Positions 10,191 through 20,321 of a stretch of 21,348 bases of DNA are shown piece after piece. Position 1 is the stretch's first letter. Each line of letters starts with the position of its first letter. The stretch is taken from assembly GCA_030690875.1 (NCBI GenBank), contig JAUYFP010000041.1, forward strand, positions 1 to 21,348, read 5' to 3'. The notes under the pieces are model-generated. The model saw only the letters and a program-made list of their open reading frames with translations, was not told the DNA's origin and ran no database searches. This DNA comes from a bacterium (GTDB taxonomy: Bacteria > Patescibacteriota > Patescibacteriia > UBA1558 > GWA2-36-10). The position numbers were made by a program, and so were the translations under genes.

Positions 10191-10856
10191 ATGACATTTG
10201 AAACACCGCCATTAGGAGACCATTATAACTATTCGGGTTTTGATCCTGAATGGTTAAAAAATCCAGAGATTCAGGAAAAAGCTCGTAAGTTAGCTGAGTT
10301 CTGGCAAAAGGAATTTGCATCTTTAGATTTTAAGGCCTCTGATGATGAAGAGATATTAATTCATTTTACTAATGATCAAAATTTAGTTGATATACAGGCA
10401 GATGATAGTGCAGTTTTGAAAAATAGATCTAGATTTTATGATGGTGGTCGTGAGAATTTAGAAAAACATGGTTTTGATTTTGAAAAAGCTGATGCTGAAT
10501 TTGGTACAGAAAAATGTGTAGTAACAATTCCATTACGGTCATTTAAGCGGTGGCTCGACACTTTATCATGGCTTAAATTAACTGGTGCGGGAGTATTAGA
10601 TAATGCTATAGTGTTTAAAGTTCCAAAGAAAGATATTTTATTAAGAGATGGAAGGTTTGTGGAAAATATGTTTAAAATTGATGCCGAAGGCCAAGATAAA
10701 GATAAATTAGATCTTGATCGCTTAGCATATTTTAATTCTACAAGTCATTATAATGAAGAATTATTTGATGATGAGCAAGCTATACCAGAAGCATGGGTAC
10801 CACACAAGTTATCTTTAGAGGGTGCTCAGACTATTAATTATCAAGAACAAGAATAA
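10191..10856 (+). CDS. Orphan 221-aa protein between dnaK and dnaJ
   Basis: This gene is not a recognised chaperone family member. It begins 2 bp after dnaK, and its TAA shares an A with the dnaJ ATG (TAATG), so all three are translationally linked. The protein is acidic and soluble with no membrane segment or CxxC. Weak pattern similarity to ADP-ribosyltransferase-like folds is visible: IHFTNDQNLVDIQ (57-69) resembles the H-x-T...N-L..I start of DarT-type enzymes, and EAWVPHKLSLEG (200-211) resembles their late Glu-containing strand. This is a guess from motif spacing only. Codon use is plainer and more AT-rich (few GCC/GGC codons) than in dnaK or dnaJ, which suggests later insertion into the operon. 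Confidence 0.8.
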   Translation: MTFETPPLGDHYNYSGFDPEWLKNPEIQEKARKLAEFWQKEFASLDFKASDDEEILIHFTNDQNLVDIQADDSAVLKNRSRFYDGGRENLEKHGFDFEKADAEFGTEKCVVTIPLRSFKRWLDTLSWLKLTGAGVLDNAIVFKVPKKDILLRDGRFVENMFKIDAEGQDKDKLDLDRLAYFNSTSHYNEELFDDEQAIPEAWVPHKLSLEGAQTINYQEQE

Positions 10857-12023: not shown

Positions 12024-14447
12024 TTAAAGCGCATTAGTGTGCAAATGGTAATAGGGAGGTCTATTTTTATAGCGTTTGATGGCCATAGCAATAATATCTT
12101 CCAAAAAATCGCCATAATCCATACCAGTAAGTCCGGCAACAGACGACACACAATCTTTGATATTAATAGAGGGGTTGGGATTAAGCTCTAAAACATAAGG
12201 ATTATCATCTTTATCCACTCTAATTTCCACCCGTCCATAGTCATGACAGTCCAAAATATTATATGTATCCAAAGCTATCTCAGTTATTAATGCTTCTAGT
12301 TTTTTACTAATATTTTTAGGTGGACGTTGCACGCTAATACCATAAGTATCTAGAGTGTTTTTGCCAAACTTCATTTCGTGTGTATAAATATGCCAATCAC
12401 CATCTTTCATATCCTTAAAGATAGAACGAGATAAGGGTAAGGCGCGTAAATCATCATCTTCACTGCCTAAAATAGATACATCGTATTCATCACCTTCAAT
12501 ATACTCTTCAATTAAAGCTGGGCTACCCATTTCCGTAATGATTTTTTTTAATTGCTGATTAAGTTTTTCTCGATTAGTAACCACCGAATCATTACCGATA
12601 CCAATAGAATTATCAGTATTAGCTGGTTTAATAATCAAAGGATACTTTAAACTTTCGTCGATATCATCATCTAAAGTATAAGCATAATCCCAGTGCGGTG
12701 TAGGAATGTTGTGGTGGGCTAAAAGTTTTTTTACTCTAATCTTATCAATACACAAACTCAAAGTTAGTGGATTGGAACCAGTATAAGGTACGCCTAAAAT
12801 ATCTAATAGTGCCGCTGCATGTGGCTCTAAAAGACTAGAATTGTTAATGCGCTCACAGACATTAAACACTAAATCAACATCGCTATTTTTTAAATTACTG
12901 AAAGCCTCTTCAATTTTGTTAAAATTGAAGAAAGTTACTCGATAACCGCGTTCTTTTAAGGCAGTTTCAATATTACGACCAACTGACATTAGTTCTTGTT
13001 CAATATCATTTTCTCCGTTTTCATAAACATTACAAGCAATACCAATGTGTAAATTCCGTTGATCCTCTTTTTTTAAAATTCTGATTTTTTCAATTTTGGC
13101 AGTATGAATCAGTAGACTGCTATTTAAAGCAGCGTGGGAAAAACTATTTTTGCGTGAAGTCTTGCCAATCGAAGATTCTGGAGTAAATTTAGCTACTTCA
13201 TAATTAATATGTTTTAAGGCATCTTTCAAATTTTCTTGGGCATCAGGCATACTAAAACCAGAAACTGTAATCCAACCTAAAAATTCGTAACCTTCTGGTG
13301 GCACCAGAATTGGTTCGCCAATTTTTTTAAAAAAATATATTTCCTCCAAATATTCTTTTTTGTAAATTGCTTGGTCAACATCTAATTTAGATAAGACCCC
13401 TGAATAATCAGATAGAAAATAGATTCCAGTAATATATTTTTTAGGAATTTCTGGCCGTTCCATTTTAGGCACATACTGACCTAAGGCAATTTTTACTCCA
13501 CACTCAATTAAATCAAGACCCCAAGCGCTTTTGACAAAAGAATAAACTTGGTCGCCACCCATGCGTAAATTAATTTCAATTGGTATTGGCCCGTTTTTGG
13601 TAGATTTGGCTTCAAAATGGACAATACCGTTTTGCACACCTAATTTTTCTAAGGTTTTTTCGGCTAAATTTACTAAATTTAGCTGGTTAATATTTGAAAG
13701 ACTTGAAGGTATAGAGTCTCCGGTTTCCACAAAAAAAGGCTCTTTAGTTTGATGATTATCGGTGATGGAATGAAATTTAATTTTGCCATTTTGTAAAACA
13801 ATATCCAGATCAACCTCATCGCCGGCAATATATTCTTCCACAAAAATATCTAAACCCTCTGCCAAAGCGCTTTCGGTTTTAACGGAAATATTTTTTTTAA
13901 TATAATTATAGGTGTCAATTAATTCCTCTTTATTTTCTATTTTGATAACATAAGCGCTAAAAGCTCCATAAGCCGGTTTAATCACCATGGGGAAAATAAA
14001 GTCTGCCGGTAAATTCTGTATATCGCTTACAGATTTAAGTAAGGCATACTTAGGGGTTGGTAAATTATTGTTTTGACAAAATTCACGAAAAGCAAATTTA
14101 TTCCTGATTTTTTTAGCAATACCATAAGGCGTGCCAATAAAATTAAACTTATCCACTATTTTAGCGGTCAGTGAGACATCGTCTTCCCAAAAAGTAATTA
14201 CACCATTAATATGAATTTCCGGATTATTGATGATAAAATCTTTAACTGCCGCGATGGCTTCTCGGTAATTGGTGTTGTCAGCGATAATCCAATGATCAAC
14301 GTAAGCTTGGGCCCAATTTTTTTCGTTGTTTAAACAAACAATTTTTAAACCCAATTTTTTTAGACGATGTAAAATAAATCTTTTTTTAATAGAACCGGTA
14401 TTAACTAATAGAATAGTTTTATCGGTGAAATCAATGTTATTTTTCAT
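12024..14447 (-). CDS. Fusion of two ATP-grasp ligases (amino-acid ligase-like + Ddl-like)
   Basis: This 807-aa protein has two complete ATP-grasp modules. Module 1 (about 1-425) has a Rossmann-like preATP domain, IKPAYGAFSAYV (156-167), EEYIAGDEVDLD (204-215), the Mg site region PIEINLRMGGDQ (289-300) and a C-terminal lid domain with PPEGYEFLGWI. This layout is like L-amino-acid ligases and carnosine-synthase relatives. Module 2 (about 464-807) resembles D-alanine-D-alanine ligase, with LHIGIACN..., YTGSNPLTLSLCIDKIRVK (555-573), IKPANTDNSIGI (606-617), EEYIEGDEYDVS (647-658) and ELNPNPS (754-760). Both modules keep their ATP and metal residues, so two successive ATP-dependent carboxylate-amine ligations are likely. 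Its ATG overlaps the upstream gene's TGA by 4 bp, with an AAAGGA SD. Substrates are unknown. Confidence 0.88.
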   Translation of the reverse strand: MKNNIDFTDKTILLVNTGSIKKRFILHRLKKLGLKIVCLNNEKNWAQAYVDHWIIADNTNYREAIAAVKDFIINNPEIHINGVITFWEDDVSLTAKIVDKFNFIGTPYGIAKKIRNKFAFREFCQNNNLPTPKYALLKSVSDIQNLPADFIFPMVIKPAYGAFSAYVIKIENKEELIDTYNYIKKNISVKTESALAEGLDIFVEEYIAGDEVDLDIVLQNGKIKFHSITDNHQTKEPFFVETGDSIPSSLSNINQLNLVNLAEKTLEKLGVQNGIVHFEAKSTKNGPIPIEINLRMGGDQVYSFVKSAWGLDLIECGVKIALGQYVPKMERPEIPKKYITGIYFLSDYSGVLSKLDVDQAIYKKEYLEEIYFFKKIGEPILVPPEGYEFLGWITVSGFSMPDAQENLKDALKHINYEVAKFTPESSIGKTSRKNSFSHAALNSSLLIHTAKIEKIRILKKEDQRNLHIGIACNVYENGENDIEQELMSVGRNIETALKERGYRVTFFNFNKIEEAFSNLKNSDVDLVFNVCERINNSSLLEPHAAALLDILGVPYTGSNPLTLSLCIDKIRVKKLLAHHNIPTPHWDYAYTLDDDIDESLKYPLIIKPANTDNSIGIGNDSVVTNREKLNQQLKKIITEMGSPALIEEYIEGDEYDVSILGSEDDDLRALPLSRSIFKDMKDGDWHIYTHEMKFGKNTLDTYGISVQRPPKNISKKLEALITEIALDTYNILDCHDYGRVEIRVDKDDNPYVLELNPNPSINIKDCVSSVAGLTGMDYGDFLEDIIAMAIKRYKNRPPYYHLHTNAL

Positions 14448-15718
14448 AAAAGTCCTTTAAGTTCTTGCTGATAAATATTAAATAGTTTATTTTTAAATTG
14501 TTTGGGAATAGTAGTACTTGGATGAATGCCAAAAAATTTACCACGCAAAATCTTTTCTCGTTTAATTGCCTCTTTTAAATATTTTTTGGCAAATAAATCA
14601 ATTAAGTCGCCTGAGCAACCATTGCGATAAGCCAAGAAAAAAGCCAATAATTGTTCATCACGGACAGCTTTGGGCTTTTCGTAGGCGCGAGTATTTTTTG
14701 CACTAAATAAAGGAAAGAATTCAATATACTGTTTGGCAAAAAAGTTACGATTAAAACTAATTTTTTTTGGATCACCGCCGATTGCTTTAGAATATAAAAA
14801 GGCTTTAGCGCACATTGGACATTCATAGCACCATTTTTCGCTATTAGTTTTTTTTGGCGAGCAAGACATTAAGTATTTTAATAAGTTAGGATAGCGATGG
14901 TATAAAATATGCATTTCCGCTAGATTGTAAATCGGTTCAACCAGACTCACAGACTGTAAATTATTTTTAGTTAGACGTTGTAAATATTGATTATGTTTTT
15001 TAGCATAAATAATTGATTGATCAAAAGACGGATAAGATTTATAGCCGTTGTGATTTATAAAAGCATCTGTAAAATTAGCTTCGTTGCCCAAAATTACATA
15101 TTTAGCGCTATAATAATAAGCTAAGGGCAGAAGTTCTAAAATAAAAGCCAGCATGCCGTTAGTATTATCAAATTCGTGAATTTTTTTAATTAACTTTTTA
15201 GATAAAAATATTTCATCCGCGTTATCATACAAATAATCAATTTGTACTTTTTCGTTTTTGATAAATTTTTTTATAATCTGCTTTTTAAATTTAGCTTCAA
15301 CGCTGTTTAGATTTTCCATTTCTTTAACAAAGACAATTTGGCAGTTTAAACCAAGTTCTCTTACCAAGCCATAAGATAATAAGCTGTCTTTGCCAAAAGA
15401 TAAAGCTAAAATTATCTGTTTAGCTTTAGTTTTATATTTAGGTACTAAATAGGGCTTATTTTTGGCTAAGATAAAACTAAGTCGGGTTTTCTTAGAAGCT
15501 TTAAAATCGGTTAGTAGATCTTTGGTTTTTAGGTTGTTTATATCAGCAATTTTACCCAGATCTTTTACTATACCATAATCAGCAAAATTGGCCATTAGGG
15601 GTTTAGAAAAATTATAAACCAAACTAATATCGGTTAAAAAAGTTAACTGTCGTGTCCGGCTATAAATAAAATTATCAGCCAATATTTTTTTATTTTTAGC
15701 ACCAAGACTGGAAAACAC
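14444..15718 (-). CDS. PP-loop ATPase resembling MurL (UDP-MurNAc-L-Ala-L-Glu epimerase)
   Basis: From the GTG at 15718 this gene gives 424 aa. The pyrophosphatase loop SFGKDS (107-112) marks an N-type ATP pyrophosphatase that adenylates a substrate and releases PPi. The downstream blocks match my memory of MurL: LGNEANFTDAF (210-220), INHNGYKSYPSFDQS (221-235), SLVEPIYNLAEMHI (258-271), a cysteine cluster WCYECPMCAKAF (296-307, with C286 nearby) and KPKAVRDEQLLAFFLA (348-363). MurL, known in Xanthomonas, converts the L-Glu of UDP-MurNAc-L-Ala-L-Glu to D-Glu with ATP going to AMP and PPi. The operon partner is the double ATP-grasp ligase. The frame is open for another 45 codons upstream without ATG, GTG or TTG, so the N-terminus is uncertain. 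Another PP-loop activity remains possible. Confidence 0.75.
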   Translation of the reverse strand: MFSSLGAKNKKILADNFIYSRTRQLTFLTDISLVYNFSKPLMANFADYGIVKDLGKIADINNLKTKDLLTDFKASKKTRLSFILAKNKPYLVPKYKTKAKQIILALSFGKDSLLSYGLVRELGLNCQIVFVKEMENLNSVEAKFKKQIIKKFIKNEKVQIDYLYDNADEIFLSKKLIKKIHEFDNTNGMLAFILELLPLAYYYSAKYVILGNEANFTDAFINHNGYKSYPSFDQSIIYAKKHNQYLQRLTKNNLQSVSLVEPIYNLAEMHILYHRYPNLLKYLMSCSPKKTNSEKWCYECPMCAKAFLYSKAIGGDPKKISFNRNFFAKQYIEFFPLFSAKNTRAYEKPKAVRDEQLLAFFLAYRNGCSGDLIDLFAKKYLKEAIKREKILRGKFFGIHPSTTIPKQFKNKLFNIYQQELKGLL

Positions 15719-15866
15719 TTTCGGCTTATATTTTATTCCATATTTTTTTTCTCCACCAAAGTTAATTTGAAAACCGTCGTTTGTAATTAGTGAAGAAATT
15801 TTAATTGTATTAGCTGAAGATTTTTTTGCTTTGATTTTCTTATTTTTTAATTGTTAATTTGATATT

Positions 15867-19793: not shown

Positions 19794-20321
19794 ATGATGA
19801 AAATAGATAAATTAATAGAAAATAGTGATATTGGTGAAAAGACAGAAAAAATTCTTGTCCGTGTTTTAAGTAAATTTTCACCAGATCTTCAGGATTTTGT
19901 AATAAATAATATCTCGTTCATTGAGGCAAAAGTGGAAAATAAATGGAATAGTAAAAATAATCACATTGGATTTTGTATGGATGTTACAAAATATTCTTTA
20001 AGTTATTTGATTGTTTTAGATTCGAAATATTATAAATTAAAGGAGGAGCATAAAACACATATTATAGCTCATGAGATAGGTCATGCTTTTCTCGGACATT
20101 CGGGTAGTAATGTCAAAGAAGAATTATGTGAAAAAGAGGCTGATGATTTTGTTAAAAAATATGGATTTTTTTCGTCAGATATAGGACTTGGGTATACTTT
20201 AAAATTTCTAATTTCTGCTGCGATTATGATTGCTATAGTAATGCCTGTTATTCTTATTTTTCTTATGCTGGTCTATGTAGATAAAATTGAATATTTATTA
20301 CAGTGGATGGTTTTCATTTAG
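19794..20321 (+). CDS. Membrane-anchored HExxH metalloprotease, ImmA/IrrE-like
   Basis: This is a 175-aa protein. The zinc-binding motif HEIGH is at 93-97 within HIIAHEIGHAFLGH. About 15 residues later EKEADDFVKKYGF provides the likely third ligand (Glu113 or Glu115), the spacing used by the ImmA/IrrE (M78) family. That family cleaves repressors or sensors. The N-terminal 85 residues are soluble. A C-terminal hydrophobic region (about 130-163, LKFLISAAIMIAIVMPVILIFLMLVYV) makes one or two membrane helices, which is unusual because classical ImmA is cytosolic. The active site would face the cytoplasm if the N-terminus is inside. Its position just before an S49 membrane protease suggests a shared proteolytic role, an inference. 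Confidence 0.75.
   Translation: MMKIDKLIENSDIGEKTEKILVRVLSKFSPDLQDFVINNISFIEAKVENKWNSKNNHIGFCMDVTKYSLSYLIVLDSKYYKLKEEHKTHIIAHEIGHAFLGHSGSNVKEELCEKEADDFVKKYGFFSSDIGLGYTLKFLISAAIMIAIVMPVILIFLMLVYVDKIEYLLQWMVFI

Follow-up and report, generated by a model that had tools for sequence, protein, structure and literature searches.

What does a PP-loop protein related to MurL do when its gene overlaps that of a fused, dual ATP-grasp ligase? The question is raised by contig JAUYFP010000041.1 of the patescibacterial assembly GCA_030690875.1, analysed over its full length of 21,348 nucleotides (the window). A reading made from the letters alone (hereafter the sequence-only reading) had placed the two overlapping genes at 12024-14447 and 14444-15718 on the minus strand, which we confirmed, and had proposed that they serve a peptide or wall-precursor pathway. 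We consider it probable that a carboxylate-activating PP-loop enzyme here works with ATP-grasp ligases outside peptidoglycan. The chances appear evenly balanced that these two genes form the core of a route by which small peptides are made without the ribosome and apart from peptidoglycan, the PP-loop enzyme activating the peptide's C-terminal residue and probably also epimerising it; epimerisation as the outcome of the PP-loop step is itself an even call. Homology, active-site motifs, recurrent linkage and hosts in which no Mur ligase was detected are evident in the sequences. Loci are given below as L numbers and genomes as G numbers.

12024 to 14447, minus strand: dual ATP-grasp ligase gene, 807 amino acids (aa), from the open reading frame list with Pfam and NCBIfam matches; overlaps the PP-loop gene by 4 bp
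14444 to 15835, minus strand: PP-loop (MurL-related) gene, 463 aa if begun at the ATC at 15835, 424 aa if begun at the GTG at 15718

The linkage of PP-loop and ATP-grasp genes is real and beyond chance. Homologue searches for the PP-loop protein and the ligase, in which the best 8000 candidates were scored each, listed at least 169 PP-loop and at least 764 ligase proteins, the query counted. The pair singled out by the sequence-only reading is conserved elsewhere: of 51 family loci other than the window, 26 have an ATP-grasp gene no more than 1.5 kb from the PP-loop gene, compared with 0/20 MurL loci and 0/62 loci of a second MurL-like family (0/82 controls together). Besides the window, this count excludes repeat genome fetches (L001-L008, L017, L103, L162, L192-L194 and L197-L199) and weak MurL-type hits (L009-L016); the wider stretches L222-L241 come from genomes already counted. 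The ATP-grasp models were built from the family's own (linked) ligases, and other ATP-grasps could therefore escape the count. Moreover, the gene pairs are tight, overlap in several phyla and occur in both gene orders, and the linkage is found across Patescibacteria, Spirochaetes and DPANN archaea and on one Omnitrophota contig.

In a tree whose labels were set by hand (L024 and L165 being labelled linked, with their ligase just beyond 1.5 kb), the window's own clade of 17 rows (100/100) comprises 15 linked rows, one at a contig edge and one not linked. Its patescibacterial rows, together with one Omnitrophota row resting on a single, possibly misbinned 8.8-kb contig, are nested among archaeal rows, which suggests transfer between domains; the nearest named relatives of the window PP-loop protein are patescibacterial. 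Of 379 genomes sampled from the window's phylum, 10 contain full-length PP-loop members (E<1e-90), as do 25 of 371 from that of the archaeal genome G225, and G421 carries two such members plus a weak match (54 bits, in a 449-aa frame) typical of MurL proteins, unconfirmed as MurL. Seen from the ligase, 18 of 29 dual ligases with at least 66% identity on contigs of at least 6 kb share their contig with a listed PP-loop homologue, contigs being counted as shared when equally long and 119 of the 120 listed ligases, all but one that lacked a length, being compared with the best 120 of the 169 PP-loop homologues. Viral carriage was considered and dropped, none of 51 pattern matches in viral contigs having been confirmed.

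The PP-loop protein belongs to a family that, as judged by sequence, is a separate member of the MurL superfamily, outside the MurL clade. In profile-profile comparisons the family matches MurL at 5.7e-22 over 323 columns, the second MurL-like family (L036-L097) at 1.6e-25 and QueC at 2.2e-5 (the QueC profile was made from 10 sequences); the MurL-like character claimed by the sequence-only reading is thus borne out, and the grouping with a QueC-like family that it had raised gives way to a nearer kinship with MurL, on a QueC/QatC-like fold. MurL matches 54/78 family members at E 0.001 (best 5.5e-12), and QueC (PF06508) matches 8/78 at E 0.01 (best 1.8e-5), the window protein not among them. 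Seventeen conserved positions are common to the family and MurL. The best NCBIfam match of the 424-aa protein is MurL NF041275 (6.4e-6, 24.9 bits, cut-off 700), a narrow model by which patescibacterial MurL proteins score just 232-494 bits and 0/191 genomes pass the cut-off; when the window's own genome was searched with it at E 0.001, the window protein was not retrieved. The 424-aa protein had no Pfam match up to E 1, and neither the window protein nor the family profile gave a meaningful match among the sequences of solved structures. AlphaFold2 models of the family protein and of MurL both show a predicted QueC/QatC-like fold, confident for the family protein, and each model aligns with QatC over 307 residues.

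Because trees put the window family (45 of its 78 sequences, 100/97) in a clade apart, it is not MurL itself. MurL, represented by 20 patescibacterial loci, forms one clade (100/100), as does the second family (16 of 62 sequences, 100/99), in a tree of three families that has no outgroup and for which the program warns that the long branches of MurL and the second family meet. Among the MurL loci, NCBIfam shows MurL joined to MurD in L104:10383-13310, and open frames above 800 aa occur in others. The second family was found in Acidobacteria, Bacteroidota, Desulfobacterota and others; the sole member scanned, L046:9356-11875, carries a fused creatininase/MftE-like domain, and many of the others have frames near 800 aa, some near 500 aa.

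Conserved motifs of the PP-loop protein:

15383 to 15400, minus strand: pyrophosphate-binding motif SFGKDS, residues 146-151 of the 463-aa form, from an alignment of 78 rows
15080 to 15088, minus strand: GNE motif, residues 250-252, with E252 in 78/78 rows; common to MurL
14810 to 14863, minus strand: four-cysteine site C325-x10-C336-x2-C339-x2-C342, comparable with the QueC zinc site

Within SFGKDS, which is also common to MurL, G148 is kept in 78/78 rows and K149 and S151 in 99%, and all four cysteines are kept across the family and in MurL. The QueC zinc motif is C(x)8CxxCxxC (PMC13329287); the window protein has a spacing of x10 where QueC has x8, and its metal binding is putative.

The sequence-only reading had the PP-loop gene right and its start probably wrong. 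Homologues are mostly 440-480 aa, and the close ones share about 40 N-terminal residues beyond the 424-aa form, a stretch that the upstream frame of the window encodes; the start therefore lies upstream of the GTG at 15718, probably near 15835, where an ATC codon occupies the place of the ATG in the closest homologues. Positions 15718-15859, which encode this conserved N-terminus, contain no ATG, GTG or TTG start, and the ATC may be either a real start or an assembly error. When the 463-aa form is modelled with AlphaFold2, confidence is high from about residue 10 onward.

The ligase is composed of two modules:

13158 to 14447, minus strand: N-terminal module, about residues 1-430, L-amino acid ligase type, with an ATP-grasp_4 match at 13551-13994
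12024 to 13130, minus strand: C-terminal module, about residues 440-807, Ddl type with altered substrate positions, with a Dala_Dala_lig_C match at 12090-12668

Pfam models exceed their cut-offs in both halves (PF13535, 107.4 bits vs 27; PF07478, Dala_Dala_lig_C, 110.1 vs 24), and LAL_C2 (PF18603) does so in the N-terminal module (32.0 bits vs 29.4), whose best solved relative is the L-amino acid ligase BL00235 (3vot, 8.1e-29). The C-terminal module matches solved D-Ala-D-Ala ligases (3r23, 1.1e-22), and E-x-N motifs are kept in both halves of eight aligned dual proteins. The fusion of an amino-acid-ligase-like with a D-Ala-D-Ala-ligase-like module described by the sequence-only reading is thereby supported, and so is its observation that an ATP-grasp partner stands in place of MurD2. 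However, the Ddl-type half misses the TIGR01205 cut-off (148.2 vs 245.65 bits) and, in an alignment to 4zqi, carries Phe and Asp in place of Tyr216 and Ser281 of E. coli DdlB; the place of Glu15 falls outside that alignment. We take Glu15, Tyr216 (active-site) and Ser281 (D-Ala2-binding) to be the DdlB substrate residues in this numbering. From its sequence, the C-terminal module is Ddl-like and not Ddl.

The gene content of the hosts bears on whether the pair serves the cell wall. Mur ligase matches occur in 16/16 bacterial hosts searched, in 4-6 stretches each; among seven archaeal (DPANN) hosts, two show a single match each and the other five none. MurI is over its cut-off in 10/16 bacterial and 0/7 archaeal hosts, and of 12 bacterial hosts searched for a separate Ddl (E<1e-45), 8 have one, the four without a hit being G000 (the window's), G040, G042 and G224. 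The window's genome is a draft of 718 kb in 119 contigs, 69% complete, and of the wall genes to which the sequence-only reading pointed it has MurI (203.7 bits, over the cut-off) and Mur ligase matches, a separate Ddl being the part not found. In the window's class, 21 of 191 genomes contain MurL proper; MurI is over cut-off in one of these 21, with weak matches in three more. Because most archaeal hosts show no Mur ligase match, the pair probably does not belong to ordinary cell-wall synthesis, and on balance the gene content suggests that in the window's organism it does not supply wall D-Glu. Of the pathway that the sequence-only reading proposed, we retain the peptide-building and probably epimerising part and consider the wall-precursor part weakened.

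The order of the steps, the epimerisation, the chemistry and the product are what we infer. Each ATP-grasp module of the 807-aa protein would form one amide bond through an acyl phosphate, giving an N-acylated peptide whose free C-terminal carboxylate the PP-loop protein would then adenylate. The activated residue would be inverted and then hydrolysed with release of AMP, a sequence of events that has been hypothesised for MurL (PMC8788868). Other lineages may add further ATP-grasps, a LysA-like decarboxylase, or a lysine-2,3-aminomutase-type or enolase-type dipeptide-epimerase-like enzyme. LysA acts on a D-centre, and a later decarboxylation by the LysA-like enzyme would fit those lineages that have such a gene. 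It is possible, if rather doubtful, that all of this amounts to an undescribed peptide pathway common to candidate-phyla bacteria and DPANN archaea, in which ATP-grasps make a tri- or tetrapeptide, a MurL-related PP-loop enzyme spends ATP to invert its C-terminal residue and the product is a conserved metabolite, secreted or on the surface, of reduced cells; some lineages would then insert a beta-amino acid from the lysine-2,3-aminomutase-type enzyme, and in some the LysA-like enzyme would decarboxylate the peptide.

Several observations weigh against a peptide pathway built on this pair. No ATP-grasp gene lies within 1.5 kb in 25 of the 51 family loci: two of these (L024 and L165) carry the ligase slightly further off in the same gene run, three (L025, L032 and L169) end near the PP-loop gene on one side, and no ATP-grasp gene was seen in five bacterial loci (L018, L031, L164, L168 and L170) or in 15 archaeal loci (L202-L216), 12 of which were checked to about 4.5 kb (L222-L233). 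These archaeal loci fall in three subclades. The ligase family is also larger than the PP-loop family (at least 764 vs at least 169 proteins), and 0/60 dual ligases below 66% identity on contigs of at least 6 kb share their contig with a listed PP-loop homologue, which suggests that the ligase also works without the PP-loop protein; the list is one of closer relatives (the best 120 of 169), so that distant partners would be missed. The unlinked loci and the apparently independent ligase would suit the explanation that the genes adjoin by chance, each with a housekeeping role of its own, which we consider very improbable given the absence of linkage in all 82 control loci and the overlapping genes in several phyla and in both orders.

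On the same side of the balance, no MurI is over cut-off in 6/16 bacterial hosts (G094, G219, G220, G230, G232 and G233), G094 having two PP-loop copies, and the pair could therefore have a wall role in these six. These hosts, the homology to MurL and the separate Ddl in just eight of the 12 hosts searched would all agree with the PP-loop protein replacing MurL or MurI in peptidoglycan while the ligase makes a variant stem peptide. As the main role, however, this is improbable: the window's genome, although only 69% complete, has both MurI and Mur ligase matches, Mur ligase matches are missing from five of the seven archaeal hosts, none of the window's genes was recognised as a mur gene, and it is MurL proper, present elsewhere in the class, that goes with a MurI over cut-off in just one genome of 21.

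Likewise, we found no report of any tested enzyme from the PP-loop clade. Searches of open-licence PubMed Central papers brought up no description of the PP-loop/dual ATP-grasp pair in the titles, listings and passages covered (PMC8939145 is further literature cited). Fold and adenylation would fit amidation or ligation equally well with epimerisation. The strongest rival is a QueC-like one, in which the PP-loop enzyme would activate the peptide's C-terminal carboxylate, as QueC does with its own substrate, and ammonia or an amine would then attack it; the product would be an amide, a nitrile or an extended peptide. We regard it as unlikely, since the long profile match goes to MurL and not QueC, which recognises eight of the 78 members as against 54 for MurL, and since we recognised neither a glutaminase nor another source of ammonia among the annotated neighbours.

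The predicted fold also brings in a QatC/Cap9-like protein-conjugating enzyme of defence or signalling, which would use the ligase product or 7-deazaguanine. QueC, QatC or Cap9 membership is weakened by the scarcity of QueC and PADLOC matches and by the closer MurL profile: the window protein has no PADLOC match, and among the 78 members one matches the QueC model and none any other QueC-like model (PADLOC's name for QatC being unchecked). The position of the Asp in QueC's YPDC motif, placed via the profile alignment, is D in only 2/78, and no QatA, QatB, QatD or CD-NTase was recognised among the annotated neighbours, so that we think this reading quite improbable. None of 19 MurL proteins had a PADLOC match named QueC or QatC, and it is therefore the predicted fold that carries the MurL-QatC link.

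The preferred reading, activation and probable epimerisation of a peptide C-terminus, draws its lineage-specific steps from further neighbours. A LysA-like decarboxylase is present in 11 linked loci (L019, L020, L022, L024, L026, L027, L028, L098, L102, L195 and L196); two such proteins scored 157-160 bits against a LysA cut-off of 298, and 9/9 aligned keep what we presume to be the pyridoxal phosphate-binding lysine and a Cys-Asp motif, roles that we assume from LysA. A search of the window's own genome, the 69% complete draft, for a LysA-like partner found none; the search had no positive control. Lysine-2,3-aminomutase-type enzymes, below the curated cut-off where scanned, lie near or fused to the ligase in nine loci (L021, L024, L026, L028, L029, L030, L033, L171/L238 and L201/L241); Woesearchaeotal proteins of about 700 aa (L024:5957-8068, L029:6534-8618 and L030:45-2138) fuse such a domain to a Ddl-like ATP-grasp, as judged by Pfam for L024 and by our own locus models for L029 and L030. 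A further ATP-grasp type occurs in L020, L022, L098 and L102, an L-Ala-D/L-Glu epimerase-like gene adjoins the PP-loop gene in L098 and is one gene away in L235, and an ATP-binding cassette transporter lies downstream in L022. A radical-SAM gene near the pair in L099, at first an aminomutase look-alike, turned out to be RlmN and was dropped. Three archaeal PP-loop relatives without ATP-grasp neighbours (L222, L227 and L228) share a run of small genes (clusters k4-k7) and may have another role.

In the window itself, a gene recognised from its sequence as dnaJ runs convergent to the ligase gene and an FKBP gene sits upstream of the PP-loop gene; G+C is 0.28-0.34 over 12-16 kb and 0.36-0.41 over 1-12 kb. 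Elsewhere in the window, two tandem look-alike prepilin-like genes lie at 125-1217, with an N-methylation motif in the second, the one scanned, and a 221-aa protein without a Pfam match is encoded at 10191-10856 between dnaK-like and dnaJ-like genes. At 19794-20321, adjoining an S49 peptidase gene, is a gene whose 175-aa product carries a HEIGH metallopeptidase-like motif and, towards its C-terminus, hydrophobic segments, and likewise has no Pfam match.

If the proposal is true, the presence of a related family in archaea in which no Mur ligase was detected would make ATP-driven epimerisation of peptide C-termini a wider chemistry, and a dedicated, secondary-metabolite-like pathway would have been retained by bacteria and archaea whose assemblies are mostly 0.6-2 Mb. 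The family offers small protein pairs that are open to test. The reaction of QatC is stated as unresolved in PMC13279940, and the MurL-QatC fold link may help with it.

Compared with known systems, the N-terminal module resembles L-amino acid ligases (BL00235, 3vot; BacD) in keeping E-x-N-x-R and in matching 3vot, but differs in its fusion with another ligase and in its coupling to a PP-loop enzyme. The C-terminal module resembles D-Ala-D-Ala ligase in its E-x-N motif and its Dala_Dala_lig_C match, but has Phe and Asp at the active-site Tyr and the D-Ala2-binding Ser and falls below the TIGR01205 cut-off. With QueC, Cap9 and QatC (PMC13329287, PMC13279940 and PMC11996544) the PP-loop protein shares a QueC-like core and the four-cysteine site, and its alignment with QatC extends over the QatC N-terminal extension; weak or no sequence matches, a YPDC Asp missing in most members and other neighbours set it apart. 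The second MurL-like family lies at about the same profile distance from it as MurL does, but had no ATP-grasp gene within 1.5 kb in any of its 62 loci. MurL itself (PMC5808125) differs in having MurD2 as its partner instead of a dual ATP-grasp ligase, and the window's family forms its own clade, whose hosts include bacteria with MurI of their own as well as archaea in which no Mur ligase was detected. Yet both are homologous PP-loop proteins of similar length that share the GK-S, NE, S and four-cysteine positions, and in both the gene adjoins that of a ligase that could make the substrate of the PP-loop enzyme.

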